From positions 1-37,236 of the forward strand of contig SIBE01000010.1 in assembly GCA_009695265.1 (NCBI GenBank): 37,236 nt of DNA. Direction: 5' to 3'. This document shows, one piece after another, positions 10,828 to 13,715 of this stretch (position 1 is its first letter; every line of letters begins with the position of its first letter). The translations under genes were made by a program, and so were the position numbers. The notes below the pieces were generated by a model. That model was not told where the DNA came from and made no database searches. It worked only from the letters and a program-made list of their open reading frames with translations. The stretch is from Pedosphaera sp. Lineage in GTDB: Bacteria > Verrucomicrobiota > Verrucomicrobiia > Limisphaerales > SIBE01.

Positions 10828-11886
10828 TTACCCTTGAAGTTGCGCTGCCAGCCGGTAGCAGTCTTCGACGAGGGTGATGGTCTTAAGGTAAGCGCGACCT
10901 TCACTCTCGGCCTGCTGGTGGGTGCGCAGGCAGTCGATGAGATGTCGTTGCGTGGCAAAAACGCTGTCGCCTTTGTAACCGGCAGCGGTCGGCTCGAATG
11001 GGAGAGGCATTTCCGGGGCGCCTCGATTCGAGAGAACCAGATAGCCGTCCGGCGCGACGCGCAAGGTCGAACGCTCACCTTCGATGACCAAACCACCCAT
11101 CGCCACCGGCGACGGTAATGGGCCGGTGTGGCGATCGCCATGGATGAACCCTTCCGCGCCGCCGACAAACTGGACATGGATCTCCGCCCAATCCTCTCCT
11201 GCGATAACGGGATTCACTTTGCGCGTCTCGCACGCCGTCACTTCCAGTTCTCCGCCGAGGAAACGGAAGGTGTCGAGAATGTGAACGAGACTCTCAAAAA
11301 TCAGCAGACGCGGCATCTGCCGGAAGTAAGGCTGGGCGGCGTATGGCTCCGAGCCCGTGCCGTCGGCCGTGCGCCAATCGAACGTCAATCGTTTCACCGT
11401 GCCGAGTTCACCCGCGACGATGAGCCGCCGCGCTTCGCGGTACCACGGCTGCCAGCGCCAGTTCTCGTGGACGAGTAGGCGCACGCCCGCAGCTTCGCAG
11501 ACCTCACACATCGCCACGCTCTCCGAAACGGTTGGTGCCATCGGTTTCTGGCAGATGACGTGGATGCCGCGGCCTGCGGCCAACCGGGTGAGCGCCAGAT
11601 GAGTGTCCGGCCGCGTGGCGATGTCCACAAAGTCGGGGTTCTCTACCATGACTGCTTCCTCGGCGGAATCGTAGAAGCGCGGCACACCGAACTCTTTCGC
11701 AAACGCCTGAGCCCGCCCCGGAGCAGAGTCCGCCACCGCGGCCAGGAGCGGCGGCATTCCTGCCACCGAGTCTGGTCCTGTCTGTTCCGGGCAACTGGGA
11801 AGCCGCCCCTCTAATCGCTTCCACGCCTCAGCCTGAAACCGAGCGAAGAAGCCCGCGCCGATGAGGACGCCTTTGAGATGTTTCAC
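10828..11886 (-). CDS. Gfo/Idh/MocA family NAD(P)-dependent oxidoreductase with in-frame REP insertion
   Basis: A 352-residue oxidoreductase starting at GTG 11886. The Rossmann GxGxxA motif is GAGFFA (10-15), VADSAPGRA follows at 51-59, and the catalytic EKP signature appears as QKP (113-115). MTFDW-type and H-rich regions of the C-terminal GFO_IDH_MocA domain follow (EDWAEIHVQF, GFIHGDRHTG). The start is chosen because MKHLKGVLIG places the Rossmann motif at the usual distance; an ATG at 11955 would add 23 residues unlike the family. Residues about 28-47 (RLPSCPEQTG and onward) are extra between alpha-1 and beta-2 and coincide with a REP-like sequence at 11745-11820. It probably oxidises or reduces a sugar-type intermediate in the cytoplasm. 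Confidence 0.9.
   Translation of the reverse strand: MKHLKGVLIGAGFFARFQAEAWKRLEGRLPSCPEQTGPDSVAGMPPLLAAVADSAPGRAQAFAKEFGVPRFYDSAEEAVMVENPDFVDIATRPDTHLALTRLAAGRGIHVICQKPMAPTVSESVAMCEVCEAAGVRLLVHENWRWQPWYREARRLIVAGELGTVKRLTFDWRTADGTGSEPYAAQPYFRQMPRLLIFESLVHILDTFRFLGGELEVTACETRKVNPVIAGEDWAEIHVQFVGGAEGFIHGDRHTGPLPSPVAMGGLVIEGERSTLRVAPDGYLVLSNRGAPEMPLPFEPTAAGYKGDSVFATQRHLIDCLRTHQQAESEGRAYLKTITLVEDCYRLAAQLQG
11745..11820 (-). repeat. REP-like element inside the oxidoreductase gene
   Basis: Bases 11745-11766 match the 22-base REP arm at 12801-12822 and 12057-12078 at 20 of 22 positions. The other end, 11799-11820, shares its first 13 bases (gaagccgcccctc) with the palindromic element at 11975-11996. 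The stretch is in frame and adds about 20 residues to the oxidoreductase where family members have a short loop. Confidence 0.65.
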
Positions 11887-11964
11887 GTTGGCACTTTCAG
11901 TCTGCGGAACGGATTTACCACCAGGCAGCAGCCGATGGTGACGCAGAACGACCACGACTCTTCT

Positions 11965-11996: not shown

Positions 11997-12046
11997 CTGT
12001 CGGTTCGCCATGGACCTGCGGACAACGAGAATGAAGCGTTTAGGAA

Positions 12047-13561
12047 TCATGCCATGGGAGCGGCGGCATCCCTGCCGCTGGTTTCTTCTTCAGACTTGGA
12101 TCCAAAGGCGGCTGGGATACCGCTGGTCCTGGCATTGCCACTCGATCCACCTTTGCGGTCAAGCAAGTCCGCCACAAGGTCGCCTTCCCACAAAGTGAAC
12201 TCGCCCGCGCGGAGTTTCGCTTTTTCCGGATTGCGCCGAATGTAACGCGCCACCTTGGCGAAGTGCTCGCGATTGCAAATGCTACGATCAAAATAGTCCT
12301 TCATCCATAGCGCGCCCGTCTGGCCGAGGCACCGATTGATTTCGGTGGCGGTGAAACTCTTCCAGGTGTGCAGCACATCCTCCAAACGGTTTTCCGGAAG
12401 CAGCGAGAACAGCACATGGACATGATTGGGCATGATCACCGAGGAGAGCACGGTGTGTCGCTCTCCGTGAGAGTGGCGCAATACCGCCGCCACAATCTCG
12501 CGGCACTCCGCGCGACGGAGCACGCAGGTGCCGCGGCCTTCATCGAGCCAGCCTTCAATACGTGCGGGAAATCGCTTTTGATATTCGGCCTCCTGCTCCT
12601 TGTTCCACGACGGTGGATTGGCTCGATTCCACGCCTCGTGTTCCGCCTGCCATTGTTCGAGCAACTCTTCCGGAAGGGAATCCGCGAGACGGAAGGTGAC
12701 GAAATAAGTCCCACTGTCCTGACCCCAATGCGGCAGGCGGTTGACGTGGATATCGACTTCCTTGTGGTCGAGAAAGACGAGGTTGGCGAACGGGTCGTTA
12801 GGAGCGGCGGCATCCCTGCCGCTGGTTTGCTTAGCCTTCCCAGAAGGCTCGGCGGCAGGGATGCCGCCGCTCCCATGCTCGATGGCAAAGGCGCGGCAGG
12901 GACAACCATCGCCGCCTTCGATTTTCAAGGGCGCAGCGACGAAGAATACTCTCTCGTGTGTGAGCGCGCCAAGGTTCGCGAGGCCTTCAACGATTGTGAC
13001 ATTCGCGCCCAAAAGAATCTTGTGAATGCGCGTGAGTTCCTCGCGGTTGTTCACGTCAGCGACGGATGGCGGCTCGACGCCGAGGATGTTCACCCGCTTC
13101 TCAACACACCAACGCGCAAGGTCGTCGGCGATGCGCGGAAAGTTGTCGCGGTAATGCTGTGGACTGCCGGCATGACGTGACCAGCCGGTGTGCAGCAGCA
13201 GGCTCTCGCCCGGCGCAAACCTCGCCGCGATGTCACCGAGATGAGCGACGGTGATCGGCGTATTGTCCGCGATGCCGTCGAGACGCACGACCCACGCCCA
13301 ACTCACGCAGCGTTCGAGGGGCGTTTGGTCAATGGTGCCGGGACCGGCGGCGAAGTGCGCCTGTGCATCGATGTGAGTGCCGGCGTGCGAGTAGAGGTGG
13401 AGCGTGCGCGCGTTCCAACCGTCGCGCTCGACAGTGTTCGCCTGTTCAAACGCCACGCCGCGCATTCCATCGCGTAACGTGAGAGTGAGGTCGATGAGTC
13501 GCCAAGAGGGTTGGCAAACCTGTCGCTCGGTTTCATTCACCAGCGCGGGGGCGGCAAGCAT
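12047..13561 (-). CDS. Fusion: metal-dependent cyclase (kynurenine formamidase-like) plus RAYT (REP-associated tyrosine transposase)
   Basis: A single 504-residue frame with two unrelated halves. Residues 20-228 are a cyclase/formamidase of the PF04199 type: HAGTHIDAQAHF (59-70) is its zinc-binding signature and APLKIEGGDGCPCRAFAIE its normal C-terminus. Residues 229-255 are translated REP sequence (SGGIPAAEPSG ... GRDAAAP). Residues 262-470 are a RAYT/Y1 transposase: LPHWGQDSGTYFVTFRLADS opening, HUH pair at H380/H382 in IMPNHVHVLF, probable nucleophile Tyr423, and a YIRRNPEKAKL tail. The end again reads REP (GRDAAAPMA). The start at 13561 is set by AAGGAAGGG 4 nt upstream; frames reach back to 13693 without signal. 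The RAYT half has no ATG or GTG start of its own that I can find in frame. Confidence 0.9.
   Translation of the reverse strand: MLAAPALVNETERQVCQPSWRLIDLTLTLRDGMRGVAFEQANTVERDGWNARTLHLYSHAGTHIDAQAHFAAGPGTIDQTPLERCVSWAWVVRLDGIADNTPITVAHLGDIAARFAPGESLLLHTGWSRHAGSPQHYRDNFPRIADDLARWCVEKRVNILGVEPPSVADVNNREELTRIHKILLGANVTIVEGLANLGALTHERVFFVAAPLKIEGGDGCPCRAFAIEHGSGGIPAAEPSGKAKQTSGRDAAAPNDPFANLVFLDHKEVDIHVNRLPHWGQDSGTYFVTFRLADSLPEELLEQWQAEHEAWNRANPPSWNKEQEAEYQKRFPARIEGWLDEGRGTCVLRRAECREIVAAVLRHSHGERHTVLSSVIMPNHVHVLFSLLPENRLEDVLHTWKSFTATEINRCLGQTGALWMKDYFDRSICNREHFAKVARYIRRNPEKAKLRAGEFTLWEGDLVADLLDRKGGSSGNARTSGIPAAFGSKSEEETSGRDAAAPMA
12057..12130. repeat. REP unit downstream of RAYT, degenerate right arm
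   Basis: The left arm 12057-12078 is identical to 12801-12822. The right arm (about 12108-12130) is recognisable but carries several mismatches, so the hairpin is imperfect. The sequence is translated as the last residues of the fusion protein. Confidence 0.75.
12801..12873. repeat. Compound REP (BIME-like): 22-bp inverted repeat with nested hairpin
   Basis: The arms 12801-12822 and 12852-12873 are perfect 22-base inverted complements. Inside the 29-base loop a second perfect hairpin occurs: agccttc (12833-12839) and gaaggct (12843-12849). The element encodes the linker between the cyclase and RAYT domains. Confidence 0.88.
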
Positions 13562-13597
13562 ACCGCCCTTCCTTTCTTGGGCGGCGGCGAGGATACT

Positions 13598-13613
13598 GTC
13601 ACCCCCGGGTGAC
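13598..13613. repeat. Short palindrome upstream of the cyclase start
   Basis: gtcaccc and gggtgac form 7-base arms around two bases. It lies about 24 nt upstream of the Shine-Dalgarno sequence of the cyclase gene in the 154-base gap after the DUF1501 stop. It could be an operator, an mRNA hairpin or another REP-like unit. Confidence 0.3.
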
Positions 13614-13715
13614 TCAGCGCTCTTCATGATTTCGCGATGATATCGTCGGCCATCTGGGTCGCACTCAGGTTTCCACAGCCAAGCCGACAGCACCCGATGG
13701 GCGACGAGAGTTTGA

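Follow-up and report, generated by a model that had tools for sequence, protein, structure and literature searches.

A single minus-strand gene encodes both a cyclase and a RAYT in the 37,236-nucleotide stretch of Pedosphaera sp. DNA that was analyzed (hereafter the window), and the locus most probably represents an in-frame "translated REPtron," belonging to a lineage of RAYTs that reside within protein-coding genes. Along the minus strand the order is cyclase, REP pair, RAYT, REP, and stop (Table 1), and one frame matches both the Cyclase family PF04199 (E = 5.9e-26) and the Y1_Tnp family PF01797 (E = 2.7e-8) of Pfam. The initial annotation had described such an uninterrupted frame without assigning it a strand; in the window it is open on the minus strand, the plus strand of 12047 to 13561 containing stops. 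In the sister species, a genome of the same genus (G001), the same fusion is in frame, open over 572 codons, with 93% nucleotide identity over 3.8 kb. AlphaFold2 models both the cyclase and the RAYT domain with confidence and predicts the linker and the tail to be disordered.

Table 1. Features of the cyclase-RAYT fusion locus (window coordinates)
Feature	Coordinates	Strand	Details	Basis
Longest open frame, stop to first possible start	12047..13693	-	548 aa	ORF listing
Fusion gene: cyclase, REP linker, RAYT, REP tail	12047..13627	-	ATG 13627; stop TGA 12047-12049	Frame conserved in G001 contig C92 (L006)
Cyclase/formamidase-family domain	12878..13501	-	Complete to last conserved residues GDGCPCRAFAIE; metal motif SHAGTHIDAQAHF	PF04199
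REP-like in-frame stretch in cyclase N-terminal leader	13544..13603	-	SILAAAQERKGGMLAAPA	Homologue comparison
REP pair translated as linker	12801..12873	.	HGSGGIPAAEPSGKAKQTSGRDAAAP; perfect 22-bp arms	AlphaFold2-predicted disorder
RAYT (Y1 HUH transposase) domain	12128..12799	-	NDPFAN... to ..ADLLDRK; without own start codon	Pfam, NCBIfam, Foldseek
HUH motif	12416..12424	-	H-V-H of MPNHVHVL	Positions invariant in family alignment
Predicted catalytic Tyr	12242..12244	-	In RYIRRNP (Y---NP)	Invariant in family; signature per PMC6006769
Translated 3' tail	12053..12127	-	Includes distal REP arm (12053-12078)	Inverted-repeat analysis
Remnant of isopropylmalate/isocitrate-dehydrogenase-like C terminus	13624..13660	-	..TQMADDIIAKS and stop	Relatives
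First eight codons of deleted MFS transporter gene	12026..12050	-	MIPKRFIL..; old cyclase/MFS junction	Relatives

The start of the fusion is best placed at ATG 13627, which is common to all three known copies, whereas ATG 13561, previously credited with a strong ribosome site, reads ATC in the sister species. From the shared start the product has 526 amino acids and a mass of about 58 kDa, not the 55 kDa once expected. ATG 13627 overlaps the stop of the upstream dehydrogenase-gene remnant as ATGA, and translation from it looks coupled; the TGA of the fusion overlaps the first codon of the MFS transporter gene, also as ATGA. The earlier suggestion of a RAYT without its own start codon is borne out: its frame contains no ATG, GTG, or TTG from the last one in the cyclase to a TTG 88 codons on, and this TTG falls past the first beta strand of the RAYT, so that initiation there would delete that strand. 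The RAYT itself thus supplies neither a start codon nor a stop codon.

The RAYT half carries the features expected of this transposase class. In the family alignment (A1), residues N125, H126, and H128 of the HUH motif, Y186, and N190 and P191 are invariant, giving the HUH plus Y---NP combination; Y---NP is the signature of class 2 TnpA-Y1 proteins (PMC6006769). The initial annotation had noted an HUH pair; its candidate catalytic residue, Tyr423 (the Tyr of KDYFD, at about 12293-12295), is not invariant, the invariant one being that of RYIRRNP. The fold matches TnpA-REP bound to a REP hairpin (4er8) by Foldseek (E = 2.9e-6) and by profile search (E = 2.6e-6). The NCBIfam model REP_Tyr_transpos gives 63.4 bits, under its curated cutoff of 80, which is a database threshold and no biological definition. 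By motif, REPs, and fold, and not by the NCBIfam model, the window protein is assigned as a divergent RAYT member.

The cyclase half belongs to its superfamily by a PF04199 score of 91.8 bits (cutoff, 23.1) and by the HxGTHxDxxxH metal motif (SHAGTHIDAQAHF). Its relatives in the PDB are 1r61, 5nnb, and 4cz1, and the cyclase domain matches the cyclase-family hydrolase 3krv by Foldseek; the arylformamidase model TIGR03035 scores 52.4 bits, below its curated cutoff of 223. Cyclase homologues begin directly at RLIDLTL, without the REP-like stretch of the window leader.

The RAYT is flanked by two inverted REPs. The arms of the linker (12801-12822 and 12852-12873) form a perfect 22-bp inverted repeat, and the distal arm (12053-12078) forms with 12852-12877 a perfect 26-bp inverted repeat that spans the RAYT. 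The GT(A/G)G heads of the REPs are GTAG/GTGG in the second copy of the fusion in the sister species (GTAGGAGC in contig C115 and GTGGGAGC in contig C146) and are degenerate in the window copy. No target site duplication was consistent across the copies compared. Nearly all matches of the window's REP family in G001 fall in the open frames of recognizable genes, including those encoding PSCyt2/PSD1 proteins, a protein kinase (between its catalytic and activation segments), an isopropylmalate-dehydrogenase-like protein, Gfo/Idh oxidoreductases, and the cyclase, the last having matches at either end. Within the window, the Gfo/Idh-type oxidoreductase gene next to the fusion (minus strand, 10828-11955) has a REP-derived in-frame stretch, PSCPEQTGPDSVAGMPPLLAAV, near its N terminus (11740-11830), and the homologue of this gene on G001 contig C115 has a fuller one. 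A REP pair is translated in a Ser/Thr protein kinase between DFG and the APE segment on two near-identical G001 contigs (L191 and L193, about 216-275), and the same REP pair is also translated, at matching positions, in two PSCyt2/PSD1 (DUF1549/DUF1553) proteins (L189, about 1507-1560; L192, about 1437-1490).

Comparison with relatives locates the point of entry. The sister species has a second, diverged, older copy, split over two contigs whose junction is deduced from the linker that they share. At the end of contig C146 stands a cyclase (78% amino acid identity) followed by the same kind of REP linker, and contig C115 starts inside that linker and continues with the RAYT (85% amino acid identity) and an intact MFS gene with an ATGA overlap. 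At its terminus, C146 repeats the cyclase end in inverted orientation (L070, 1-143); this hairpin at the REP is probably an assembly or library artifact at the palindrome. Length differences among the fusion copies are whole codons throughout, and the reading frame runs unbroken through the transposase in both species, as had been proposed for the window. Two relatives have empty alleles (G006, locus L007; G043, locus L008), in which the cyclase ends on an ATGA or GTGA junction a few codons past GDGCPCRAFA(I/V)E. The element therefore entered the variable tail of the cyclase, just past its last conserved codons as the initial annotation had placed it, and exited in frame onto the old stop; measured against the empty alleles, it displaced at most about nine cyclase codons. 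At the same place upstream, the dehydrogenase gene is intact on G001 C146 and in L007, L008, and L010; downstream, the MFS gene follows the cyclase in the empty alleles, by ATGA or GTGA. The operon around the window fusion has decayed, the dehydrogenase and MFS genes being reduced to remnants, and both are intact at the second G001 copy. In other lineages (L009 and L010) the gene after the cyclase encodes not an MFS protein but one starting ..VVLDDDPTGTQTV.., so the operon partner of the cyclase varies.

The window RAYT is not alone in its residence. Within the same order, most related RAYTs occupy open frames of roughly 1000 codons, a length due to their position inside other genes, and scans of public genomes and of the window's order and phylum bore this out. 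A Y1 domain with Pfam host domains on both sides was found in at least 15 unrelated host families: HsdR, EcoEI-type R, LeuRS, ValRS, MmeI, SNF2, CarB, CCA/poly(A) polymerase, exonuclease VII large subunit, a dehydrogenase followed by Gfo/Idh, an adenosine deaminase-like protein, DinG-like helicase, PriA, ClpB, and DnaE. The host sequence picks up almost at the residue where it was interrupted; on solved structures, interruption and resumption map to 368|376 in Thermus thermophilus LeuRS (1h3n), 474|479 in Escherichia coli CarB (1bxr), 194|198 in ExoVII (8txr), and 517|522 in ClpB (6dju). Of 32 ClpB genes in one genus, 3 (in three species) are filled and about 25 have full length without the element; the alignment resolves the junction to single residues. 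A translated hairpin or inverted repeats flank nearly every copy inspected. Carriers belong to the Verrucomicrobiota, Planctomycetota, and Kiritimatiellota and, among metagenome-assembled genomes (MAGs), to several further phyla; most carrier genomes are MAGs, and two loci (L116 and L129) come from records not labeled as such. One locus that groups by sequence with LeuRS (L112) was left out of the counts, being only about 30% identical to the others and perhaps another synthetase, and a structure model of a LeuRS-RAYT protein (pTM = 0.30) was too poor to be used as evidence.

The initial annotation regarded RAYTs as normally stand-alone, a description that does not suit this clade, in which about half of the detected members appear to lie in frame inside host genes. 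Taking open-frame length as a proxy, 38 of 48 order-wide matches of at least 220 bits fall in open frames of more than 430 amino acids, as do 41 of 88 matches at E of ≤1e-68 in an even sample of the phylum; these rates lean upward for the clade because in-host members made up most of the input to profile A1. The surroundings of 24 stand-alone copies, all with complete flanks, served as a control: 17 lie between opposite-strand genes, 6 lie between different complete Pfam genes, and 1 could not be assigned. Out-of-frame gene splitting was seen in none of these 24, while random orientation and frame would be expected to leave about 1 in 18 insertions in frame at both ends. In two Verrucomicrobiaceae MAGs (L126 and L138), a stand-alone RAYT occupies the intergenic region between the Sua5-like and MurJ genes, at the same position in each.

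RAYTs also group by host gene, with 18 changes compared with a shuffled mean of 42, and this grouping holds even across phyla; each lineage thus tends to keep to one gene and site. Between the window and the sister species, the RAYT core has a dN/dS of 0.35 (bootstrap 95% interval, 0.18-0.70), compared with 0.11 for the cyclase; against the second copy the RAYT value is 0.14-0.17, and cyclase values are 0.10-0.11 throughout, a stronger constraint than that on the RAYT. The RAYT half is accordingly judged to be under purifying selection. In ten further host pairs that could be scored, RAYT dN/dS was 0.07-0.30, close to that of the hosts. For Eco57I-type methylase hosts in the Planctomycetota, RAYT dS is 0.16-0.38, compared with 1.4-2.0 for the surrounding gene, making the RAYT far younger than its host, whereas two HsdR genes have the opposite age relation. 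These differences in age suggest reinsertion or conversion at the same site in a homing-like manner. The methylase-borne RAYTs of three Planctomycetota MAGs (L136, L142, and L146), far younger than their hosts, are candidates for recent horizontal homing.

In one alternative, internal initiation or reinitiation would yield most of the RAYT as a free protein, and the in-frame linkage would be mainly a by-product of the need to keep the host frame open. An ATG, GTG, or TTG lies within 25 codons upstream of the LPHW motif in 38 of 73 in-host copies, and some host REPs have an in-frame ATG just before the RAYT, as this account would have it. The remaining 35 of 73 lack any such codon, compared with 9 of 48 stand-alone copies, and in the window the 88 codons without a start, followed by a TTG whose use would cost the first beta strand, also speak against it; overall this reading is unlikely.

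That the cyclase and transposase form a domesticated chimera, as the initial annotation had raised, with the RAYT recruited for a cyclase-linked function such as REP binding or regulation, is more doubtful still. The fusion is conserved in two species and at two loci under purifying selection, and it was kept despite the loss of both operon neighbors, as recruitment would predict. However, hosts of at least 15 unrelated families house the same RAYT lineage, other genes of the genus carry REP insertions just as the cyclase does, and the RAYT is less constrained than the cyclase. Domestication is therefore not needed, and recurrence in so many families points to the element's way of life and not to recruitment by the cyclase.

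Improbable to much the same degree is a decaying passenger, a dead element whose frame is open through youth or high G+C content. Degenerate REP heads, the lost neighbor genes, and the highest dN/dS of the set would suit it. Against it, the dN/dS of the RAYT core has an interval that stays below 1. The HUH and Tyr residues are intact, indels comprise whole codons, and over the element region the other two sense frames contain 2 and 8 stops. A decayed pseudogene was rejected on the dN/dS values, the whole-codon indels, and the catalytic residues together. The window copy may nonetheless be losing mobility, given its degenerate REP heads, the deletion of both operon neighbors, and a RAYT under weaker constraint than any other in the set. 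An assembly chimera or sequencing error, to which a draft MAG (61% complete, 153 contigs) and a repeat-rich site might have lent themselves, is ruled out as an artifact by the second species, the independent genome G001 having the identical junction and frame, and retains next to no probability.

The translated REPtron reading would work as follows. Insertion of single-stranded DNA is established for HUH elements, and the REP-RAYT-REP element presumably inserts in this form. The host frame, both REP hairpins, and the transposase thereby make up one frame, closed by the stop codon that the host gene already had. Insertions that disrupt a gene would be lost, whereas those that preserve the frame in a loop, in a linker, or at a terminus may persist in needed genes; survivorship, and not an insertion mechanism that chooses the frame, would be the simplest account of the in-frame bias. 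In the window, the cyclase start would be the only source of RAYT translation, the transposase being made as one domain of the cyclase protein, with flexible REP-encoded linkers and without splicing, so that no free RAYT would arise from splicing or separate initiation. The fused RAYT may act on REPs in trans or on empty alleles, and through its residence the transposase would be expressed and protected along with a gene that the cell needs. The steps of insertion, frame keeping, and translation fit the anatomy of the window copy, and its degenerate heads and lost neighbors hint that mobility is possibly gone. More tentatively, and with somewhat less than an even chance of being right, the lineage as a whole may home like an intein without splicing, occupying fixed sites in conserved genes, spreading between empty and filled alleles, and being tolerated as a domain of essential proteins; this reading is drawn from the clustering by host gene across phyla, the identical sites, the ClpB polymorphism within one genus, and the young RAYTs in Eco57I-type hosts.

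Inteins with homing endonucleases place a DNA-cutting protein in frame at fixed sites of conserved genes, with empty alleles in relatives. The RAYT clade shares with them the in-frame DNA-cutting protein in conserved genes, the fixed sites, and the empty alleles. It differs in that Pfam reported no Hint domain for any host scanned, the insert appears to stay in the protein, and the enzyme is an HUH transposase between hairpins. In Pfam scans, the Hint/intein splicing domain was absent from the window protein and from every host frame scanned, and on these Pfam scans an intein was rejected and a group I intron considered unlikely. IStrons, which combine a group I intron with IS605, likewise have an IS200/IS605-type transposase resident in genes without destroying them, but a ribozyme removes the IStron from RNA, (PMC4227781), whereas the frame stays open across the entire RAYT element. 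The window element resembles RAYT/REPtron systems (Nunvar 2010, PMC2817692; Quentin 2018, PMC6006769; structure 4er8) in its HUH plus Y---NP core, its two inverted REPs, and its fold, and the second copy of the fusion also has their GT(A/G)G heads; known RAYTs, however, are described as free genes between REPs, whereas the window RAYT is a domain of a host protein without start or stop. Intragenic REPs are themselves known, with Opitutus terrae the richest case, the Verrucomicrobia among the richest groups, and many replication and repair genes among the hosts, in the parts of Di Nocera et al. 2013 consulted (PMC3733652). Like Rickettsia palindromic elements, these REPs are palindromes in frame in protein genes; unlike the RAYT element, such inserts encode 20-82 residues and no transposase, and the consulted parts of that study do not mention a RAYT within a gene (PMC3733652). 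The pattern may have escaped notice because Quentin et al. 2018 left out Y1 proteins of excessive length, taking them for fusions or misannotations (PMC6006769). A search that covered the open-access literature yielded no account of RAYTs residing in frame within host genes. In-frame and apparently unspliced residence of a RAYT in conserved genes was thus found nowhere described, which falls short of proving priority.

REPs and RAYTs are regarded as extragenic, and what makes cells retain RAYTs is still a puzzle. A RAYT lineage translated inside LeuRS, CarB, PriA, DnaE, or ClpB suggests upkeep by linkage to a gene that cannot be lost. The clade offers natural domain insertion experiments and a marker for misannotated "transposase" hits in essential genes, and its pairs of filled and empty alleles provide direct material for the study of RAYT mobility. 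Its insertion sites may also serve protein engineering as naturally permissive positions.
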